Shown one piece after another: positions 8,937 through 34,316 of a stretch of DNA of 38,575 nt (the first letter of the stretch is position 1; the number at the start of each line of letters is the position of its first letter). Both the position numbers and the translations under genes were made by a program. The stretch comes from a virus, in the IMG/VR virus record IMGVR_UViG_3300042540_000959, positions 1 to 38,575 of that record. One strand, written 5' to 3'. The notes below the pieces were generated by a model. That model had not been told where the DNA came from, ran no database searches, and saw only the letters and a program-made list of their open reading frames with translations.

Positions 8937-9995
8937 TCACCAACCCCCCCCAGCAGCAGCGACCCGCAGCCGATCGCCGAGACAGACCCAGTTCCGAGGG
9001 AATCCCCCAACCCTGCGCAGCGCCGGGGACGTGGGCTTCACCCTTTCAACCGGCACCAGCACCAGCTGATCAGGCCGCTCGCGGCGCCGCCTGCTCCGAT
9101 CCCTCGGCTCCACCGTCCCCCGTTCCACCGCCACCAGCACCAGCTGCACCGACTGCGACGCCAGTGCCGCCTGCAGCCGCTCCAGTCGCACCTCCAGCGC
9201 CCGTGTCGAAAGCCCCTCCTGCTGGGCCAGCTCAGGCCGCGGCACCTCCACCCCGTCAAGGCCCCAGGCCAGGGACAACAACCTGCGATCCTGCGGCGCC
9301 AACCTGGCGATCAGCCCCCGCAGCTGCTCCGCCTGCCGCCACCGTTCGCGCTGCTCTTCCTCATCCTCTGGCGTGCGGTCGTAGGTGGCGCACAGGCTGC
9401 CCAGCTCTAGCCCGTCGTCCGTCACCACCTGGTCGAGGCTGGCGACCGATCGGCCGTTCTCAACCACCTGCTCCAGCACCTTCACGCTGACGCCCAGCTC
9501 TGCGGCGATTTCCGCCTGCGTTGGCGTGCGGTTCAGCTCCAGCTCAAGCCGCCGGGTGATCGCCTGCAGCTTCGCTAGATGCTGGCAGTGGCTGCCGGGG
9601 ATGGCGATCGCCCTGCTGTACTGGTCAATGTGCCGGTTCACCCCCTGGCGAATCCACCACCAGGCGTACGTGGAGAACCGATAGCCCTTGGCCGGATCGA
9701 ACCGCTCTGCTGCCGTCAGCAAAGCCATGTTCCCCGCCTGGATCAGATCCTCGCGATCCTGCCCGGCGAACAGGCGAGAGCGGCGACTGATGAACGCCAC
9801 CACCAGCCGCAGATTCGCTGAGACGAAGCGATCCCGCGCTCGCATGCCCCGGCGCCTGATCCCTGGCGGGCACGGGTCGGGATGGGTCTGCCACCGCTGG
9901 ATGGCCGTGCCCAGCTCGATCTCTTCGGCTGGCGTGAGCAAAGGTATGCGCCCGATGCTGTCAAGCCACCAGGACTGGTTGGAGCTGGCTGGCAC
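8937..9995 (-). CDS. Sigma-70 family RNA polymerase sigma factor (352 aa)
   Basis: GTG start. Region 1.2-like LTPAEEIELGTAIQRW (20-35) leads to region 2 (about 54-123). Region 2 has RFVSANLRLVV, DLIQAGNMALLTAAERFDP and the near-invariant GYRFSTYAWWWIRQGVNR that melts and reads the -10 element. Region 3 spans about 140-195 (LNRTPTQAEIAAELGVS). Region 4 spans 222-279 and has a recognisable helix-turn-helix (ELAQQEGLSTRALEVRLERL), but it is worn compared with housekeeping sigma. An Arg-rich tail of some 70 residues follows that ordinary sigma factors lack. The set matches cyanobacterial group 1/2-type factors. It would redirect host RNA polymerase. A phage-borne full region 1.2-4 sigma is unusual. 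The gene diverges from the operon at 10086 through a shared promoter region. Confidence 0.85.
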   Translation of the reverse strand: MPASSNQSWWLDSIGRIPLLTPAEEIELGTAIQRWQTHPDPCPPGIRRRGMRARDRFVSANLRLVVAFISRRSRLFAGQDREDLIQAGNMALLTAAERFDPAKGYRFSTYAWWWIRQGVNRHIDQYSRAIAIPGSHCQHLAKLQAITRRLELELNRTPTQAEIAAELGVSVKVLEQVVENGRSVASLDQVVTDDGLELGSLCATYDRTPEDEEEQRERWRQAEQLRGLIARLAPQDRRLLSLAWGLDGVEVPRPELAQQEGLSTRALEVRLERLQAALASQSVQLVLVAVERGTVEPRDRSRRRRERPDQLVLVPVERVKPTSPALRRVGGFPRNWVCLGDRLRVAAAGGGW

Positions 9996-11821: not shown

Positions 11822-12113
11822 TCATCCTGTGAAGGCGCCGCGGGAGTTGGTCGAGAAGGTTTCACTGGAGGCGATGACCGCGATTCCAGATGACGAAGGG
11901 GCTGTTGAAATTGACGAAGCTCGCGACGAGTACATCGCCCAGTTCTTTGCCCAGTGGGGCGCAGATCAGGAGCTGGAGGCGTGCTGTGAGTGGCTCAGAT
12001 CAAAAGACATTCTTGAGCCCGCCATTGATGCCCTTCGCGCCACCCGCCGCCCATCTCATAAGCCGCCCGACACGGTCGAAATCGACGGGTTTACATATAG
12101 GCTCGTTAAATGA
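11814..12113 (+). CDS. Acidic hypothetical protein (99 aa)
   Basis: GTG start inside the end of the previous frame. PDDEGAVEIDEARDEYIAQF and QWGADQELEACCEWL indicate an acidic helical core. The C-terminus PDTVEIDGFTYRLVK resembles short beta caps seen in other small phage proteins here. The stop overlaps the HNH start (ATGA). Confidence 0.55.
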   Translation: MADHPVKAPRELVEKVSLEAMTAIPDDEGAVEIDEARDEYIAQFFAQWGADQELEACCEWLRSKDILEPAIDALRATRRPSHKPPDTVEIDGFTYRLVK

Positions 12114-12601
12114 TTATCGCAAAAGAAAAACTCAGTCTATGGCGGGAGCGTTTTCAAGTTGATCCGTCTCAGCCATCAGGGTTGTCATGGCGTCAACTAG
12201 TGCCGTACCAAAACCATCAAAAAATGGCAGGTCATTTAGTCGATGGCTATTACAGGGTTAAGACAAAGGGCAAGACTTACGCTTGTTCTCATATTGTCTT
12301 GGCGCTTTCTGGCATCATGCCTGAGTCGCACCATAAAGAAGTTGATCACATGGACTGCAATCCACTCAACAACCACGTTAGCAACTTGCGATGGTGCTGT
12401 CGATCCACTAACGAGCAAAACAAACGCAAACGCGGTAAATCTGGCTGGCGTTACGTGCGAGCAACTCCAGAAGGCCGCTGGTACGCCAGCTATCAAGTGA
12501 TCGGGCAAGGCAGGAAGCAGTATGTAGGCACCTACGACACTCCCTACCAAGCCCATTTATCGGCCGTTATTCATCGACTGCATCACCATTGGAACCCATG
12601 A
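12110..12601 (+). CDS. HNH homing-type endonuclease with AP2-like C-terminus (163 aa)
   Basis: EVDHMDCNPLNNHVSNLRW (residues 77-95) is the HNH_3 signature of free-standing homing nucleases. The C-terminal GWRYVRATPEGRWYASYQV to VGTYDTPYQAHLSAV looks like an AP2-type DNA-binding domain, a usual partner. G+C is clearly lower than in the genes on both sides, which suggests recent arrival. Both its ends sit on ATGATTATC (12110-12118 and 12598-12606), so the gene is bounded by a nine-base direct repeat that also supplies overlapping start and stop codons. Confidence 0.8.
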   Translation: MIIAKEKLSLWRERFQVDPSQPSGLSWRQLVPYQNHQKMAGHLVDGYYRVKTKGKTYACSHIVLALSGIMPESHHKEVDHMDCNPLNNHVSNLRWCCRSTNEQNKRKRGKSGWRYVRATPEGRWYASYQVIGQGRKQYVGTYDTPYQAHLSAVIHRLHHHWNP

Positions 12602-21398: not shown

Positions 21399-22246
21399 TC
21401 GCTGCCCAGCAGCTGCGCCACCGTCCACGCCCCATGGCCTGATGGTGGTGTGGCCAGCTCCAGCGCTCCAGGGTGGAGCTGTAACACATGCGCCAGCGCA
21501 CCGGCGGCAGCAGTATCACCGCGCACCCCCTTGACGGCATGAGCCCAGGCGACGTGGCCGATGTAGCGGCGCCGCAGCTCGGCCATCTTCTCTGGCGGCC
21601 AGAACACTTCCTCGCAGCCGCCTGGCCACACCATCAGATTCATTGCCCCATCCAAGCGGATGCCATAGCGCTCCTGGGCCAGCAGGTCGTAGCCCGCCAG
21701 CTGCAGCGGCCATGCCTGATCGGGCTTCGCCTTTTCTTGGCTGACCTTGCTCTTCCAATCCACGATCAGCCATTGCCCGGCGACGCGGGCGATCAGATCC
21801 GGTGTGCCGGTGTAGAACAACTGCAGCGAGGCCAGCGGCGACTCGCAGGCAATGACCTCCTCGATCTGCGGCAGGAACAGTCGCCGCCAGGTGGCCAGCA
21901 GCATCAGCGACTCGGCAAACTGCACCGGCGGCGCAGCGATGCCCAGCAGCTCCTGCCTGATCAGGGCGTGAAGCTCGGTGCCGATGTCGGCGCGTCCGTT
22001 GCGGTGGAGCTCCATGTAGGCCTCGGCCTCATCCGGCCGCATGCCTTCCTTGTTGATCAGCTTGCGGCGCCAGTGCTCGGGGTTGAAACCCTTGGCGCCA
22101 GAGAGGCCGAGCACCTGCGAGCAGCTGGGCGGCTGCAGCCACCGCCCACGGCGCTGCGACCACACCCAGTAGCGATGGCTGGGCTCATCAAATGAAATGC
22201 CCCCCTGCTGCGGCAGGAGGGCGATCCGTGGGCGATCGATGCTCAA
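21374..22246 (-). CDS. PD-(D/E)XK exonuclease, RecB/Cas4-like (290 aa)
   Basis: TTG start, directly after the stop of the previous gene. Motifs: GTELHALI (conserved His), LFYTGTPDLIARV (catalytic Asp) and WLIVDWKSK (D-x-K in place of E-x-K), then LQLAGYDLL (Q-x3-Y motif). This is the standard set of the phage exonuclease / Cas4-like fold that chews DNA ends for recombination. With the ERF protein two genes upstream it forms a phage recombination pair. No Cys cluster of true Cas4 is seen. Confidence 0.8.
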   Translation of the reverse strand: MSIDRPRIALLPQQGGISFDEPSHRYWVWSQRRGRWLQPPSCSQVLGLSGAKGFNPEHWRRKLINKEGMRPDEAEAYMELHRNGRADIGTELHALIRQELLGIAAPPVQFAESLMLLATWRRLFLPQIEEVIACESPLASLQLFYTGTPDLIARVAGQWLIVDWKSKVSQEKAKPDQAWPLQLAGYDLLAQERYGIRLDGAMNLMVWPGGCEEVFWPPEKMAELRRRYIGHVAWAHAVKGVRGDTAAAGALAHVLQLHPGALELATPPSGHGAWTVAQLLGSDHPALRAA

Positions 22247-22753
22247 TCAGCCGCCCCATCCGCCGGCGGCAGGCTGTCCCCACTGCGGCGGTGCTGCTGC
22301 TGGCGGAGCAGCTGCCGGAGGCGCCGCAGGGTAGCCCGCTGGCGGCCCGGCAGGTTGCGGCGCTGCTGCTGGCGGATACCCAGCAGGCGCAGGCTGTTGG
22401 GCGGGCTGCCCATAGGCGGGCGTTTGGGATGGGGCTGCGGCAGGAGATCCCCACTGCCCGCCGCCCTGCTGCTGTGCCTTTTGCGCCAGGTACTGGGCCC
22501 GCTCGGAGGGGCTTTCGATCTGGCCGTTCAACACCGGAGCATTGTTCTCGCCGGTGCCGCGCCAGACGCTGAGGCGCAGCTTGAAGAACTGCTCCCCGGT
22601 CTGTTGGTTGGTCTCCAGCCCTTGGCCCTGCTGCATCGCCTGGGACAGCTCCCAGATCAGCTGGGCGGGAAGCTCGACAGCACCGTTCAGGATCGGGGCC
22701 TTGGGGTTCTGGGACGGCTGGGCGTTCCAGAGATTGACACGTGCGCTTTTCAT
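22247..22753 (-). CDS. Possible single-strand-binding or recombination accessory protein (168 aa)
   Basis: Residues 1-90 form a compact beta/alpha domain (KSARVNLWNAQPSQNPKAP, PVLNGQIESPSERAQYLAQ). A Pro/Ala/Gln/Gly-rich disordered tail follows and ends GGWGG. The tail recalls single-strand DNA-binding proteins, and the gene lies between ERF and the exonuclease, where phages often keep an SSB. The core shows no clear OB-fold motif, so this is inference. Confidence 0.5.
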   Translation of the reverse strand: MKSARVNLWNAQPSQNPKAPILNGAVELPAQLIWELSQAMQQGQGLETNQQTGEQFFKLRLSVWRGTGENNAPVLNGQIESPSERAQYLAQKAQQQGGGQWGSPAAAPSQTPAYGQPAQQPAPAGYPPAAAPQPAGPPAGYPAAPPAAAPPAAAPPQWGQPAAGGWGG

Positions 22754-23334
22754 CAGACGTAGGCGGAAGGGTCGGGTTGAGACTGTGAAGCAGGGGCGGC
22801 CCAGGGCTGCTGCTGGGGCGGTGCTGCCGGCAGCTGTGAGTAGGGAGGTGCGGGAGGTTCCCATGGGGCGGATGCTGCGGCAGGCGCCGCGTCATGCCCA
22901 GAATCCTCATCGGAGGCGCAGATGCCCAAGAGGAGCTGCAGGCCGACCCTAAAGCCGCTAGTGGACGCGGCCGAGATCGCACTGGAGCTGGTCAGGCTCA
23001 GCACCGGGAACTGAGACAGCCGCCAGCCGCCGCCGCTGTGCCGCAGCATGGTGGACACCACGAACCCACCTGGCACGATGCTGATGGTGTTGGCGATGAT
23101 CACCTGCTGCGCCATCAGGGCAGGGCGAACGGCCTCCAGCAGCCCTGGCAGGTTCAGGTAGGCGTGGCGCCGACCTTTGATGTCGGCTGCGTCGTTCGGA
23201 GCCAGGCTGCCGAACGCAGGGAAGGCGGCGGCTACGGCCGCATCGAGCGCGGCCAGTTGCTGGCCAGTGGGGCCGCAGTTGGGCGGCAGCAATTCATCAA
23301 TCGGGGCGGCATCCGCCCCGCGTGCTGTGGGCAT
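22753..23334 (-). CDS. erf: ERF-family single-strand annealing protein (193 aa)
   Basis: The core, residues about 45-148, carries the ERF pattern: GRRHAYLNLPGLLEAVRPAL, VSTMLRHSGGGWRLSQFPVL, and a last block ISAASTSGFRVGLQLLLGI with ASDEDSGHDA. The C-terminal 50 residues are a Pro/Gln/Ala-rich tail. ERF proteins anneal complementary single strands and circularise or recombine phage DNA. They pair with exonucleases such as the one at 21374. Stop and start overlap the next gene (TGATG). Confidence 0.75.
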   Translation of the reverse strand: MPTARGADAAPIDELLPPNCGPTGQQLAALDAAVAAAFPAFGSLAPNDAADIKGRRHAYLNLPGLLEAVRPALMAQQVIIANTISIVPGGFVVSTMLRHSGGGWRLSQFPVLSLTSSSAISAASTSGFRVGLQLLLGICASDEDSGHDAAPAAASAPWEPPAPPYSQLPAAPPQQQPWAAPASQSQPDPSAYV

Positions 23335-23388
23335 GGTCAGAATCGAGCGGTAGGACGGCCAGATTGGGCACGGCTCTGGCGGGCCGGG

Positions 23389-23544
23389 TCAGCTGCGGCG
23401 ATCAAGCTCAGCCTCCAGCAGCAACGCTGCCATGCTGTTCATTGATCGCCGGTCATCAGCTGCCGCCGCCCGTAAGCGGTCAAACAGTGGAACAGGCAGC
23501 CGCAGCGTAATGCTGCGCGCCTCAGTGGTTGCTGCTGGCATCAT
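23389..23544 (-). CDS. Arc-like ribbon-helix-helix protein (51 aa)
   Basis: ARSITLRLPVPLFDRLRAAA then DRRSMNSMAALLLEAELDR is a complete Arc/MetJ-type RHH (strand, helix, turn, helix). Two adjacent ATGs (23544, 23541) are possible starts. The first overlaps the upstream stop (ATGA). It sits inside the recombination operon ahead of ERF, with 54 bases between. Probably a transcription regulator. Confidence 0.65.
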   Translation of the reverse strand: MMPAATTEARSITLRLPVPLFDRLRAAAADDRRSMNSMAALLLEAELDRRS

Positions 23545-23738
23545 CGCGGGCGCAGTTGGGGGCATTGTAGGGCATCGGAAGAATCAACGCCAAGCAAGTC
23601 CAGCGCCTGCAACTCTCGATCGTCACAAGATCGCCTCGACTGCAGAATGTACTGCTTGAGAAATGCCCTCTTCCGACGCGAAAGAGGATCGCCGGATAGC
23701 AATTTGGAAATCAGCTCATCGGGTTTTACGTTGGCCAT
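23541..23738 (-). CDS. Small hypothetical protein (65 aa)
   Basis: MANVKPDELISKLLSGDPLS is followed by a basic helix RRKRAFLKQYILQSRR and an acidic end. Overlaps both neighbours (ATGA and TGATG). Helical and possibly DNA-binding, but no family is recognised. Confidence 0.5.
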   Translation of the reverse strand: MANVKPDELISKLLSGDPLSRRKRAFLKQYILQSRRSCDDRELQALDLLGVDSSDALQCPQLRPR

Positions 23739-24247
23739 CACCCCTTCAGGATGACGCTTTCCGCCTGCCCCAGCAGCCGCTCCGCCTGCTGGTAACGATC
23801 AGCTTCAGGGCGACGCTCACGGCGGGCCACCTGTTGCAATTCGGCGAGGGCGCGCTTAGCACCGGCCACCCTGGCGCAGGCCTGGCCAAAGGCGATCTCG
23901 AACATGTCCGGGGTGTTCACCACTTTCGTCATCGGCTCATACGCCGAATCCTTGGTGCTGACGTTGACGTACACCGGCTCAGGCTCTGGCTCGTCGTTGC
24001 GGATCACTTGGACGGTCTTGATCAGGCTCCGTGCCTGCTCGCGCCGGTACAACTCGGCGGCCACAGGATCATTCCACTCAAAAGCAGGATGCAAAGGCGC
24101 CTCGTCAGGCCTTGCCTCGTCTACTACGGTCTCAGCCTTCAGCGTGCCGTGCTCTTCATGGATCCGAGCAAGCTCTTTGCCGGCAGTTTCAGGCGTGATC
24201 GCCCGATCATTGAACCGGCGGAATGAATCACGAAAGGAATAAGTCAT
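23738..24247 (-). CDS. Conserved phage protein of unknown function (169 aa)
   Basis: VVDEARPDEAPLHPAFEWND then AAELYRREQARSLIKTV is a block found in many phage proteins near recombination genes. An acidic linker and a coiled-coil C-terminus follow (ACARVAGAKRALAELQQVAR). The family is widespread but has no known activity. First gene after the pentamer-repeat tract. Confidence 0.65.
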   Translation of the reverse strand: MTYSFRDSFRRFNDRAITPETAGKELARIHEEHGTLKAETVVDEARPDEAPLHPAFEWNDPVAAELYRREQARSLIKTVQVIRNDEPEPEPVYVNVSTKDSAYEPMTKVVNTPDMFEIAFGQACARVAGAKRALAELQQVARRERRPEADRYQQAERLLGQAESVILKG

Positions 24248-24281
24248 CAGAGGAAAAGTGTTAGTTGAAAGAGGGGTGATT

Positions 24282-24632
24282 GCTCACCCCCTGTTACCAC
24301 GTCGAGGCTTGCTGCAGCTCGCCCTGCCGGACTCCGACTTGCCTAGCCGGACCTGCCGGGCCCTGCCGTAGCTAGCCGCGACTCGCCTTGGGATGCCTGC
24401 CATGCCAAGCCCTGCCGGGCCGCTCCGATCCTGGGCCTGCGCGGCCAAGCCTGCCGATCCCGTCCCTGCCAGGCCGTGCCGTGCCCCGCCCCACCACGCC
24501 TCGCCAGGCCTGCCAGGCCTCGCCGGGCCGCTCCCCGCCTAACCTATCCACGCCATGCCTGCCTCGCCCATCCCTGCCGCAACCCGCCGCGCGGAGCCAC
24601 GCCTCGCCTGCCAATCCGTGCCTAATTCTCTC
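24282..24632 (-). repeat. Degenerate pentanucleotide (NGGCN) repeat tract
   Basis: No convincing gene lies here. On the minus strand the DNA is a long run of five-base units built on GGC (such as TGGCA, AGGCG, CGGCC, GGGAT), with the phase kept over many units and slips in places. On the plus strand it reads as GCC-rich words like GCCTGCC. Any ORF across it translates as a meaningless Arg/Gly/His/Trp-rich string. It separates the gene at 24635 from that at 24247 in one leftward operon. G+C is very high. Confidence 0.8.
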
Positions 24633-24634
24633 CA

Positions 24635-25264
24635 TCACACGATCTCAAACAGGCCGAAACCCAAACCAGCCGACTGCTTCGAGTCGGGCCGCCCTTCGCC
24701 AACGCCAACCTGCAAGCCAACGCGGGAGATCAGGTTCACGATGTCGTCAGCAGTCAGCATCCCGGCGTCGTAGCGGATCCGCAGCGCGGCGGACCACTCC
24801 CGATACATCGGGCGAACGCGCAGATCAACAACGCCGGTAGCGTTTCGCGTGGTGGCAACCCAAGGCTCTGCAGTGCCCTCAGTCAGCTTCACCAGTGGAG
24901 CGCCGTCCACCTTGTCGAAGCCGTCCTGCATCACCATGAAAGCGAGCTTGGCGTGGGTCATCTTGAATCCGCAAGCACGGCAGGCGCTGATAGCAGCGTT
25001 CCTGAATGCCGCAGCGTGGATGCCCTCCCATCCTTCGTCGCTGACGTGCTTGGCGTTTTCGTAGAGCGCGTCAAAGTCCTTTGCCTCGCGCACCTTCTTA
25101 GAGCTGGACGTGCTGCCGGCCTCTTGCTTTTGCCGCATCTGCTCCATAGCCTTGGCGCTGAATCGGTTGATCACCAAAGGCGCCGTGCCCTTGATGTTGA
25201 TCTGAAGGTGCCGGAAATCGGGCGGAGTGATGTTCACCGCCTTGGTCGCTGTAGTGGTAGCCAT
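24635..25264 (-). CDS. Conserved phage protein in the replication/recombination block (209 aa)
   Basis: Start MATTTATKAVN, chosen from the promoter at 25325. LQINIKGTAPLVINRFSAKA at the front, AAAFRNAAISACRACGFKMT in the middle and VGVGEGRPDSKQSAGLGFGL at the end are the strongest blocks. The glycine-rich close recalls RAMP-type nucleic-acid-binding proteins such as Cas7, and single-strand-binding is a reasonable guess. I do not recognise a named family. It lies between the helicase and the pentamer tract. Confidence 0.6.
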   Translation of the reverse strand: MATTTATKAVNITPPDFRHLQINIKGTAPLVINRFSAKAMEQMRQKQEAGSTSSSKKVREAKDFDALYENAKHVSDEGWEGIHAAAFRNAAISACRACGFKMTHAKLAFMVMQDGFDKVDGAPLVKLTEGTAEPWVATTRNATGVVDLRVRPMYREWSAALRIRYDAGMLTADDIVNLISRVGLQVGVGEGRPDSKQSAGLGFGLFEIV

Positions 25265-25324
25265 AGCCCGTATCGAGTGGGAATGCCGCCGATGGATGGC
25301 CCGGCTGGGCCCGGCGACCTCCAC

Positions 25325-25353
25325 ACAATACCCCACAATGGGGGCAACTGCAA
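25325..25353 (-). promoter_or_regulatory. Sigma-70-type promoter
   Basis: Minus strand: TTGCAG at 25353-25348, a 17-base spacer and TATTGT at 25330-25325. It lies between the helicase stop and the gene starting at 25264. A CCCACTCG leader motif is at 25281-25274. Confidence 0.65.
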
Positions 25354-25363
25354 CCACTCCCCA

Positions 25364-26836
25364 TCAGATCGCTCCACCCCACGACCGCTGCAGCCGCTTC
25401 GTCGCTGCCAGCCGTTGCGCAGGGCTCAGCAACATCCTCAGCATCATCTGCCCTTGGGCCCAGCCGGGCTGCAGCCCTAGCGCTGGCTCCAGCACCTTCA
25501 GGGTTTCGTCCTCCAGCACGTCAAGGTAGTTGAGCCAGCGGCGCAGGTCCGGGGCACGCTGCTCCACCTCCAAGCGGCACCGCTCGTTCAGCAGCCGCCG
25601 CGCGACCACAGGATGCGCCTGGGCCAGCAGGTCGGGGGTGATCTCCACCAGCTTGGCGCCGGTCTCCTGCACCTCCGTATCGATCGGTTCGCCCTCGGTG
25701 ACCTCGCCGGTGTCCGGGTCAATCACTGCCTCGCGCTTCTCGCGGGGCTCCTGCACCTCTGCCTTCAGTGTCCACGCGATCTCTGCGTCGGGTGGGGGGA
25801 GCATCTTCCATGTGGGCGTGTGGTCGATGATCAGCGCTTCGGATCCGTCGGGCTTGGGGCGCAGCACGCGACCGATTAGCTGCCTGTAGAGCCGCAATGA
25901 GGCCGTGGGCCTCAGTAGCTGCAGACACGTGGCGGATGGGGTATCGAGGCCTTCATCCACGACCTGGCAGGCGCACAGCACCGTGATGCGACCGGCCTTG
26001 AAGTCGCTGAAGATCTTGGCCCGTTCCGCCGCCGGGGTGGTCCCATCTACGGCGGCAGCCGTCACACCTTCGCTGCAGTACATGGCCGCGACCTCGTGGC
26101 AGTGATCCACCGAAACGCCGACGCTGATCGTTGACAACTCCTTCGGGTTGAAGCGGCGCCAATCGGAAACGATGCTGCCGTTGATCGCCACCACCCGCTT
26201 CTCAAGGTCACTGACCGCATAATCACCGCAGCGCTTCTTCAGTCCGTCAACGCTGACAGCGTGGGGCGCAGCAAACATCCGGTAGCGAGCCAGTGCGCCG
26301 GCCTCCATCAGCTCTGCTGGCTCAGGCCCCAGGATCAGGCGGTGAAACAGCCCTGAGTCGCCCAGTCCTTTGCCGTCTGGCCTGACCGGCGTAGCGGTGA
26401 GCCCCAACATTCGCCGGGGGCTGATCGCCTGGATCGTCTTGGTCCACGTGGTCGAGGGGCTGTGATGGCATTCATCCGCCAGCAGCGTGCAGCCATGCAG
26501 CTGCTCCAGCATCTTGAGCCGGCGGCACATTGTGGGCACCATTCCGACCACCACCTTTCTGTCCAGCCTCGGGCGGCTGCCGGCAGTGATCTGGGAGATC
26601 ACGACCTTCTGGCCAAGGTGGCGATGCAGGCTGGCAACGATCTGGCTGAGGATCTCGATTCGATGGCAGATGACTACCACCTGCTCACCACGCGCAAGCG
26701 CTCTACGGGCAAGCTCAGCGAGGATGACAGTCTTGCCCGATCCTGTGCTACTGACCAGGCACGGCACCTCGCCGTTCATCATCGCGGCCTCGCCCTGCTC
26801 GACCAGCTTGGTTTGATAGTCGCGGAGGGTGAACAT
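25364..26836 (-). CDS. SF2 DNA helicase, DEAD/DEAH type (490 aa)
   Basis: Start MFTLRDYQTKLVEQG includes the Q-like motif. SSTGSGKTVILAEL (Walker A, 29-42), LLADECHH (motif II, 118-125), GLTATPVRPDG (motif III, 145-155), VVDEGLDTPSA (motif V, about 292) and RQLIGRVLRPKPDG (motif VI, 318-331). The layout and the DECH box match the Ssl2/XPB-like and phage UvsW-like helicases, which act in recombination, fork repair and the switch from early to late replication. The stop of the GIY-YIG gene overlaps its ATG. Confidence 0.85.
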   Translation of the reverse strand: MFTLRDYQTKLVEQGEAAMMNGEVPCLVSSTGSGKTVILAELARRALARGEQVVVICHRIEILSQIVASLHRHLGQKVVISQITAGSRPRLDRKVVVGMVPTMCRRLKMLEQLHGCTLLADECHHSPSTTWTKTIQAISPRRMLGLTATPVRPDGKGLGDSGLFHRLILGPEPAELMEAGALARYRMFAAPHAVSVDGLKKRCGDYAVSDLEKRVVAINGSIVSDWRRFNPKELSTISVGVSVDHCHEVAAMYCSEGVTAAAVDGTTPAAERAKIFSDFKAGRITVLCACQVVDEGLDTPSATCLQLLRPTASLRLYRQLIGRVLRPKPDGSEALIIDHTPTWKMLPPPDAEIAWTLKAEVQEPREKREAVIDPDTGEVTEGEPIDTEVQETGAKLVEITPDLLAQAHPVVARRLLNERCRLEVEQRAPDLRRWLNYLDVLEDETLKVLEPALGLQPGWAQGQMMLRMLLSPAQRLAATKRLQRSWGGAI

Positions 26837-27474
26837 CAGGCGGCCTCCGATTTTTGCGCGCGTCTTCTTTCCCAAGCCGCAATCATGGATGCTCTGACTT
26901 TGGCTCGATGTTCGGGGTCTTTCCATTTTTCTCTCATTTTTTTGGCACGCTTTTCAATAGTCTCTTGGCTTTGTTTTACCCCAGAATGCACTGCTTTAAG
27001 TTTTGCTATGTGCTCAGGAGTTAGTTTCTTCCCTGTCTTGGTTGCGCTAATTTTTGCCTTTGCCTCTGGAGTGTGAAGCCGTCCTGTCGTGACCTCGCGG
27101 ATCCTTTGCCTTGCCGCCTCACTTCTCGGCTTCCCTATTTTAGCGGCGCTCATTTTTGCCTTGGATTCTTCGCTAAAAACGTTGCCACTTGTTCCATCTC
27201 CACCGTCCGTTAAATTGCAAAGAATGCCAGCGCCCAAATCTTTCCGACCGTAAACAGCGATTAGCAACTTTTCCCATGCAAAGGCATCCTCCTCTGTCAT
27301 CTGATCAAGTATCCTTAGATTTCTGTTTAGGTCTTTCGGCATATTGATGCGCCGAGACCCTTCCCACTGCCTGCGGCCGGTCCCCTTGCCCACGTAGTAG
27401 GGCGTACCATCGTGGCGCAGAAACAGGTACACGTAGAAGCGGTTGGCGGGCTTGGCTGCTGCGCTGGCTGCCAT
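26836..27474 (-). CDS. GIY-YIG homing-type endonuclease with NUMOD3 motifs (212 aa)
   Basis: FYVYLFLRHDGTPYYVGKGT (residues 13-32) is the GIY-YIG core with its Arg in the following GRRQWEG. NUMOD3-like repeats (SEESKAKMSAAKIGKPRSE, TPEAKAKISATKTGKKLTPE) run to about residue 180. The G+C is much lower than in the flanking genes. A free-standing mobile endonuclease, probably a recent insert directly in front of the helicase start. Its start codon lies inside an inverted repeat shared with the opposite RHH gene. Confidence 0.85.
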   Translation of the reverse strand: MAASAAAKPANRFYVYLFLRHDGTPYYVGKGTGRRQWEGSRRINMPKDLNRNLRILDQMTEEDAFAWEKLLIAVYGRKDLGAGILCNLTDGGDGTSGNVFSEESKAKMSAAKIGKPRSEAARQRIREVTTGRLHTPEAKAKISATKTGKKLTPEHIAKLKAVHSGVKQSQETIEKRAKKMREKWKDPEHRAKVRASMIAAWERRRAQKSEAA

Positions 27475-30292: not shown

Positions 30293-30675
30293 TTTTGGGA
30301 CACGTCCCAAAGCTGCTGCCCGGCTGTCCCATGTAGCGGCAAGCCTGTCCCTGACTGCAGTTTCAGGCGCTGGGGAGGGTGCCCACATGGGCCAGGCTGC
30401 AGCGTTTTGGGACTTTTGGGACAGTTTGGGACAGAAGTGTCCCAGAGCAAATCGACTGCGGCGCAACGGATCTGGGCAGGTTTTGGGACTTTGGGACAGC
30501 CCCTAAGAAAATACCTTTTCTATTATTTATTTAAGTATTAGTACCTAGTCCTATGGGTATGGATGGAAATGTCCCTAGAGGCGTCCCAATGTCCCCAAAC
30601 ACAGCCAACCTGCTAGCGCTGGTGCGGTTTCTGCTTTGGGACAGCGCTGTCCCAAATGTCCCAAATGTCCCAAAA
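30293..30675. other. Candidate replication origin: GGGACA iterons plus A+T-rich stretch
   Basis: No gene in 30218-30756. At least fifteen copies of TTTGGGACA or its complement TGTCCCAAA (cores at 30297, 30304, 30325, 30346, 30409, 30418, 30428, 30438, 30485, 30494, 30570, 30583, 30639, 30648, 30657 and 30666) occur in both orientations. Some are paired head to head (30293-30310 and the exact 22-base palindrome 30635-30656). An A+T-rich run lies in the middle at about 30505-30541. The layout, repeats flanking an easily melted segment next to a replication gene, fits an origin. Confidence 0.65.
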
Positions 30676-33171: not shown

Positions 33172-34316
33172 GGTTGCACGGTTGCAAAAACCATGCTCCA
33201 TAGATTGAGGTGGGCCAGCGTGGTGGAACACCTGACCCGTGACCAACCTGCGGACACAGGCTGATGAACGGATTGTACGAGCTGCTGCCAGGGCGGCCGG
33301 ATTACGATGAAAGCAAGCACCGGCTCGGCCGCCTGTGCAAGCGTGGCCACGACTGGATGGGCACAGGCCAAAGCCTGCGACGGATAAAAGGAAGTCAGTG
33401 CACTGAATGCCATAAGGTAAATAAATCTACTCCCGAAGCAAAAACTAGAATGCAAAAATGGAGGGAAGATAATGCCGACGATCAAAGGCAAAAAGCGCGC
33501 GAGAGAATGGCAAAATTGCGCCAAAACCCTGAATATGCAGAAATCTGCAGGGAAAGAAATTGCAAGTCCATGAAAAAAAATCGCGCCACAAATGGTCGCG
33601 TGCGCAACGGCTTACACGTTCCACCCAACCTGCTAGGGCACTCCCTGCAGGCCCGCGACCTTCAGGCCTTCGCCGATGCTGGCTGGGACCTGGCGGCAAT
33701 GCTCCCTGCGACCGTCTTCGAGTCGCGCAAGCTCTGGTTTTACCTGAAAAACAACCAGTCGGCACCAACGGTTGCGGAGTTGGTGGAAAGACAGGCCCTG
33801 GATATTGTTGGCGCGGAAAAGGCAGAGTTTATAGAATCCGGCGGCACAGAAGAGGAGTGGAGAAAGGAATACGCCAGGCGTCAGCATCACATCAAAATGG
33901 CAACCGACCCGGATTACGTTGCCTACATGCGGCAGAAGTCCAAGCGCCGCAAGGCACAAATGCGTGACAGCGTGGCGATTCAAGTCAAGGGCCGAGAGAT
34001 CCGCGCCAGGTTCGCCCAGTTTGACCACCGCTGCGCATACTGCGGAGCCGATGGCGACCTGCACATTGAGCACGTCGTGCCGATCAGCAAGGGCGGGCCG
34101 CATTCAATCGGCAACATCATCCCTGCGTGCGAATCCTGCAACTACAGCAAGCGCGACAGCGAGGTTGAGAGCTGGTACCGCTCACAGCCGTTCTTTAGCG
34201 AGCTGCGCTGGCGGAAGATCTGCCGGGTGCTGGGCTGGCAGCGCTCCAGTGTCGGGCAGCTGGCGCTGCTGTAGCCCGCAACCACGGCTTACGCTGGTTG
34301 CATGACGGTTGCAACC
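33172..34316 (+). other. GGTTGC words on both sides of the HNH gene (possible split cos/terminase-binding region)
   Basis: GGTTGC occurs at 33172, 33180, 34296 and 34307, and GCAACC at 34278 and 34311. The last two overlap as the ten-base palindrome GGTTGCAACC. They lie just before the HNH gene and again around the start of the small terminase gene, where lambda-type phages keep terminase binding sites. Weak evidence. Confidence 0.35.
33264..34274 (+). CDS. HNH endonuclease next to the terminase genes (336 aa)
   Basis: The N-terminus has a Cys/His pair motif, RLCKRGHDWMGTGQSLRR with CTECHK, seen in several phage HNH proteins. The basic helical middle is long. The C-terminal HNH (CAYCGADGDLHIEHVVPISK, then IIPACESCNYSKRD) has both Cys pairs and the catalytic His. 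Phage HNH enzymes beside terminase can be needed for packaging, or the gene may be a mobile insert. The first half is visibly lower in G+C, which favours a mosaic origin. Bases 33014-33263 upstream hold the inverted repeat, a CCCTTGC/GCAAGGG hairpin (33076-33092) and two GGTTGC words, and no gene. Confidence 0.8.
   Translation: MNGLYELLPGRPDYDESKHRLGRLCKRGHDWMGTGQSLRRIKGSQCTECHKVNKSTPEAKTRMQKWREDNADDQRQKARERMAKLRQNPEYAEICRERNCKSMKKNRATNGRVRNGLHVPPNLLGHSLQARDLQAFADAGWDLAAMLPATVFESRKLWFYLKNNQSAPTVAELVERQALDIVGAEKAEFIESGGTEEEWRKEYARRQHHIKMATDPDYVAYMRQKSKRRKAQMRDSVAIQVKGREIRARFAQFDHRCAYCGADGDLHIEHVVPISKGGPHSIGNIIPACESCNYSKRDSEVESWYRSQPFFSELRWRKICRVLGWQRSSVGQLALL

Follow-up and report, generated by a model that had tools for sequence, protein, structure and literature searches.

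What is the tract of period 5 at 24282-24632 of this phage DNA, and what might it be used for? From the letters of the window (the whole 38,575-base virus record) the original prediction had described a run of degenerate NGGCN pentamers with no believable gene, lying inside a recombination operon, and had offered a recombination hotspot or Chi-like strand-exchange signal, an RNA structure or a pentamer-copying process as explanations. The tract itself is confirmed as real: identity at lag 5 is 0.486 across 24282-24632, against 0.323 ± 0.022 in dinucleotide shuffles of that stretch (reached by 0 of 1000, z 7.3) and an average of 0.271 ± 0.032 over 350-base segments of the whole record. This excess is confined to the tract, with each of the top 20 350-base segments of the record starting within 24221-24411. 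The surroundings were also fairly described, as no believable gene overlaps the tract and its strand also encodes a helicase, an Erf-like annealing protein and a PD-(D/E)XK exonuclease.

Read on the minus strand, the tract takes the form NN-GGC, and 62 units can be parsed at 24321-24622. Their motif is GGC in 42 units, GGA in eight and GGT in three, and its third base is C in 48, A in eight and T in six; the 55 dinucleotides (NN) include all 16 types, and adjacent units do not have their NN in common. At six sites (24355, 24399, 24453, 24512, 24561 and 24610) one unit is a tetramer (AGGC or AGGT, usually AGGC) rather than a pentamer, which sets the phase back by a base, and these tetramers divide the array into blocks of 9, 9, 11, 10 and 8 NN with partial blocks at both ends. 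On the 3' side, a more degenerate stretch that is conserved in close relatives runs to ~24300 and is followed by a hairpin at 24273-24290. No tail separates the blocks; the single hairpin comes after the whole array and is conserved in relatives.

Such alternation of a constant trinucleotide with a variable dinucleotide has a published counterpart in VIPR (Viral Interference Programmable Repeat), first described in a 2026 preprint (PMC13142463). The system comprises Vipr, which is a RAMP protein encoded by the phage, the accessory gene vap (vap1-6), and vrRNAs of alternating GGY and NN, each with 9-16 repeats and a structured, invariable 3' tail; the NN pairs of a vrRNA read double-stranded DNA with one base skipped, and the skipped bases lie on the wobble position (PMC13142463). 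VIPR is mostly found in phages and prophages, with targets in other mobile elements (PMC13142463). We consider it most likely, at a probability of roughly 0.93, that the window's tract is an array of guide RNAs (vrRNAs) belonging to a VIPR system carried by the phage, because the neighbouring gene is assigned to Vipr by PHROG, profile and predicted fold, gene and tract occur together across loci, and GGC is constant while NN varies. The predicted features, in window coordinates, are as follows.

24635 to 25264, minus strand: putative vipr gene, 209 aa, ATG at 25264; RAMP/Cas7-like, putative guide-RNA-binding protein (phrog_4652, 36pp_D, fold)
24300 to 24622, minus strand: predicted vrRNA array of NN-GGC units with tetramer punctuation; clear part 24321-24622, the rest a degenerate 3' continuation
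24561 to 24605, minus strand: putative guide block 1 (9 NN), from the parse
24512 to 24556, minus strand: putative guide block 2 (9 NN), from the parse
24453 to 24507, minus strand: putative guide block 3 (11 NN), from the parse
24399 to 24448, minus strand: putative guide block 4 (10 NN), from the parse
24355 to 24394, minus strand: block 5 (8 NN), from the parse; retained in part by close relatives and hence either a guide or a piece of the constant array end
24273 to 24290, minus strand: hairpin that follows the array and probably forms the 3' end of its RNA; the same in the close relatives L007, L008 and L009
23738 to 24247, minus strand: probable vap (vipr accessory protein), 169 aa; phrog_15946

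Along the minus strand, from high to low coordinates, the order is the gene at 24635-25264, the tract, the hairpin and the gene at 23738-24247. In a fourth close relative, L010, the hairpin differs in sequence, with pairing still possible; a consensus scan raised no terminator flag for the window's hairpin.

Several more familiar identities were set aside. A CRISPR array is out, as the units are three constant and two variable bases, not identical repeats with unique spacers of similar length, and the list of tandem repeats in the window holds no CRISPR repeat/spacer array. A tRNA or known structured RNA is likewise out as the identity of the tract: ARAGORN found no tRNA in 14 loci, and Rfam returned nothing at the gathering threshold in the same number of loci and only sub-threshold matches in 22000-27000 of the window. 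No hammerhead ribozyme is seen, since Rfam gave nothing above threshold. The earlier suggestion of an RNA structure held in its direction towards RNA, most likely in the form of a guide array, and finds no support as a self-folded RNA, since two pieces of the array did not surpass shuffled sequences in folding (z 0.40 and -0.67). In two other loci of the set, a tRNA T-arm-like element, GGTTCGATTC, lies inside the array or at its end (L036:3440-3600 and L023:6170-6217); ARAGORN calls no tRNA there.

The identification of the neighbouring gene draws on three lines of evidence. The product of 24635-25264 matches phrog_4652 (E 2e-18), to which the Vipr of Escherichia phage SUSP1 likewise belongs; its family profile has one significant match among PDB sequences, 36pp chain D, "SUSP1 Vipr protein" (E 6.5e-6); and an AlphaFold2 model built from a 37-sequence alignment (pLDDT 85.2) places type III CRISPR complex subunits, including Csm3/Cas7, on top in both Foldseek (E 4.8e-5) and VIA-align (Z 12.3, rmsd 3.4 over 134 residues). 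Nearly all of the VIA-align matches listed are CRISPR RAMP subunits, with 36pp absent among them. Because of the phrog_4652 membership in common with SUSP1 Vipr, the profile match to 36pp and the Csm3/Cas7-like predicted fold, we identify this gene as vipr and its product, by homology and modelling, as a RAMP related to Cas7. In direct comparison the two proteins are remote (BLASTP, 46 aligned residues at 28%). Vipr proteins are single-RRM RAMPs that carry a G-loop and a thumb; in the family alignment a G-rich C-terminal segment is visible, and we infer that the thumb is present. A weak Pfam match to CTP_transf_3 fell below the cut-off, and two analogies, immunoglobulin switch regions and RecT filaments, were dropped on the Vipr match.

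The gene at 23738-24247 is the second partner, its product matching phrog_15946 (E 2.7e-25). Of 102 loci, 89 have a relative of it no more than 2.5 kb from vipr; among the other 13, the contig ends too early in 11, while L121 and L133 truly lack it. Its AF2 model (pLDDT 93.6) finds no good match among solved folds, and no similarity was found to the corresponding partner in SUSP1 (phrog_5926). This gene is probably the accessory gene vap, of another family than that of SUSP1. Judged by this gene, the window's system lies outside the SUSP1 clade (type II), since the partner is a phrog_15946 protein without detectable similarity to phrog_5926.

Gene and tract also keep company far beyond this phage. 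We scanned 102 loci with relatives of the protein (80 kept of 429 from viral contigs, 17 from bacterial genome contigs and five from other searches), a set in which some loci are near-identical and one contig occurs twice. In 97 of them, from several bacterial phyla, the vipr relative has a period-5 tract no more than 1 kb away. Four of the five loci without a tract end less than 140 bases from the gene; L129 has room and holds a short remnant only. The tract is usually downstream on the strand of the gene, with L031, L118, L122 and L133 having it upstream, and the relatives of vipr are found in phages and viral contigs. Searching the same collection of phage records with the Vipr protein (33 found: 27 Mycobacterium, five Gordonia and one cyanophage) or with the tract alone (30 found: 26 Mycobacterium, three Gordonia and one cyanophage) recovers almost the same set of organisms. 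Furthermore, a period-5 scan of the SUSP1 locus places its four strongest peaks between genes, one on the upstream side of the gene pair and three on its downstream side, as reported for the vrRNAs (PMC13142463).

It might be asked whether the tract acts as DNA, as an array of binding sites (a replication origin, a Chi-like signal or a nucleation site) occupied by the neighbouring protein. Its seat among replication and recombination genes would suit this, as would a protein family that always accompanies it; the fold of that protein, however, is that of RNA-binding Cas7 subunits, and the GGC strand is the vipr strand in the scanned loci, as expected of a transcript. Its SUSP1 relatives, moreover, bind RNA (PMC13142463). 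We judge a role as DNA very unlikely. A Chi-like signal is a short motif scattered over a genome and read by a recombination enzyme. The periodicity here is confined to one place within the window and tracks a Cas7-like family, not a recombinase, which argues against the proposed strand-exchange signal or hotspot.

Elsewhere the window holds other features of note. Eight exact copies of TTTGGGACA (0.19 by chance), five on one strand and three in tandem on the other, lie at 30294-30674, a non-coding region with an A+T-rich middle; they look like iterons or operators, and the region may be an origin of replication or a repressor site. The record also has three genes (26836-27474, 33264-34274 and 12110-12601) that probably encode homing-type endonucleases, one of NUMOD3 type and two HNH. 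An exact 111-base tandem repeat at 1-238, at the start of a probable tail gene, and a sigma-factor gene at 8937-9995 (phrog_351, E 1.2e-49) were also seen.

To return to the predicted vrRNA array, short units like its own also occur in the parsed set of tracts. The method that bounded these tracts is biased towards steps of 5 and 4; distances recounted free of that bias give GGC-to-GGC steps of 5 in 1292 cases, of 4 in 171 and of 6 in two. In 157 of 170 short units the single base is A, and GCAGGC recurs at spacings that peak at 44, 49 and 54 nt (35, 32 and 22 cases) and mostly fall at 39-64 nt. The unit before a tetramer is CGC in 270/1356 cases, against 235/7663 elsewhere (redundant loci included). 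At L131:3714-5591, in a locus labelled Gemmatales, the units read NNGTC instead of NNGGC and the tetramers AGTC, with 365 GTC over 1.9 kb; this array may show the extent of possible drift in the code.

These regularities bear on a further conceivable origin, neutral slippage in a simple degenerate microsatellite. Period 5 and length variation among relatives are what slippage might leave, but neighbouring units do not have their NN in common, the short unit has its preferred base and its spacing of mostly 39-64 nt, the tract is tied to one gene family across phyla, and L131 retains both period and tetramers with GTC replacing GGC. We regard slippage as extremely unlikely.

The guide array appears instead to change by whole blocks. 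Four relatives carry Vipr proteins 95-100% identical to that of the window, and the arrays of the window, L007, L008, L009 and L010 measure 302, 302, 361, 586 and 550 nt, which bears out the anticipated variation in tract length. Among these near relatives the ends of the array are kept and interior blocks replaced, and an identical block can be found at other positions in other arrays. In divergent arrays, the ends of shared runs fall on a tetramer in both arrays in 33/110 cases against 55/455 for junctions within runs (odds ratio 3.1, p 1.4e-5; runs not fully independent). We infer from these patterns that each tetramer-bounded block is one guide. The proposed pentamer-copying process finds no support, as relatives swap whole tetramer-bounded blocks with different dinucleotides and show no added copies of one unit.

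A guide array could also have decayed or fallen out of use in this phage, a prospect that we consider improbable, if somewhat less so than a role as DNA. Its exact GGC in only 42 of 62 motifs might be read as decay, as might the lack of targets found below; GGA and GGT, however, are frequent variants in the whole set of arrays, vipr and vap are intact in the window, and interior blocks that differ beside near-identical Vipr proteins in four relatives suggest ongoing use.

Among known systems, the window's resembles SUSP1 VIPR (type II), which has a phrog_4652 Vipr, GGY/NN repeats beside the gene and a small second gene on the same strand, and which differs in its vap family (phrog_5926 there, phrog_15946 here). 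The arrays differ as well: SUSP1 has four separate vrRNAs of ~100 nt with their own tails, whereas the window's units form a single unbroken array punctuated by tetramers. The nearest published architecture is probably that of VIPR types in which overlapping vrRNAs make up staggered arrays (PMC13142463). The Cas7/Csm3 backbone of type III CRISPR effectors has the fold predicted for the window's Vipr; class 1 CRISPR has its disruption at every sixth position (PMC13142463), and the repeats here are of 5 nt. In Pseudomonas phage LESphi2 (L035:3184-3497), three guide-like pieces, set apart by hairpin-like inserts, lie near a weak vipr relative.

Taken as a mechanism, array, vipr and vap would be transcribed together on the minus strand, with vap playing a presumed part in the system. 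Vipr would coat the guide with perhaps one subunit per five nucleotides, gripping GGC and exposing NN. The guides would lie head to tail rather than as separate RNAs, the one-base-short AGGC unit presumably marking each boundary, and the NN pairs of one block (about 8-11) would jointly read the target DNA as NN-x-NN-x with one base skipped, so that a coding target would be read at codon positions 1 and 2. Such binding would silence genes of competing phages or prophages. In this scheme RNA binding, DNA binding, the skip of one base and repression come from the preprint (PMC13142463), and the choice of targets is our own suggestion.

The composition of the guides fits such a reading. Over 497 blocks, NN composition is nearest to that of sense-strand codon positions 1-2 (KL 0.092 bits, with five other readings at 0.212 to 0.535), which agrees with the remark on the skipped wobble base in the preprint (PMC13142463), although a binding preference of Vipr could mimic it. 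Searches for individual targets gave little. With the exact one-skip pattern, block 2 and the first nine pairs of block 3 had no matches in viral contigs, nor had the exact guides of L121, Gorge and Quico; block 3 was absent from 5 records, block 1 from 36 virus records and block 2 from the window itself, and the best matches of the five full blocks to their own record carry 4-8 mismatches whatever the skip. When at most 2 or 3 mismatches were allowed, blocks 1-4 showed no clear excess over a reversed control in 221 genomes from the family to which L117, a Synechococcaceae contig, belongs (genomes matched versus control: 15/14, 5/2, 0/3 and 12/10 for blocks 1 to 4). A Bradyrhizobium guide had one match with one mismatch in 117 genomes, about chance by estimate. 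When 404 unique local blocks were compared with both strands of about 3 Mb, matches at one skip did not generally outnumber those at other skips, and the extra matches at skip 3 arise because that skip reproduces the tracts themselves.

One guide stands apart from these searches. A tetramer-bounded guide of L121 fits the vipr genes of cyanophages at 19/20 positions in the coding frame, and L121's own vipr differs at six. This match is one among 273 guides of at least nine pairs, ten shuffled sets of 273 together also yield one, and the closer relatives of L121 match more poorly (3-5 mismatches). Targeting of a rival vipr is only suggestive here, and the case stands alone.

It is possible that the window represents a VIPR subtype in which guides run head to tail in one RNA, delimited by the AGGC slip and measured off by a ruler some nine pentamers long, and in which the guides are exchangeable cassettes, the ends of the array staying in place and the interior being replaced or moved between phages. 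The NN would then bear the imprint of sense codon positions 1-2, and the arrays would record the coding genes of rivals, their own vipr genes included. We hold this fuller reading tentatively, at somewhat short of even odds; if it were true, phages would need some as yet undescribed way of acquiring guides. Literature searches listed no paper on such tracts, and those that listed the VIPR preprint had no second paper on VIPR among their results. Relative to the main text of the preprint (PMC13142463), the phage group, the punctuated array and the exchange of guides as blocks may be new.

VIPR has been put forward, very recently, as the ancestor of CRISPR guide systems. That the array could be spotted from raw sequence without the system being named supports the notion that the gene travels with its repeat code, and the hundred or so loci gathered for this analysis offer a test set. 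The tetramer delimiter, together with the wholesale replacement of blocks beside near-identical vipr genes, makes guide acquisition without known adaptation genes testable.
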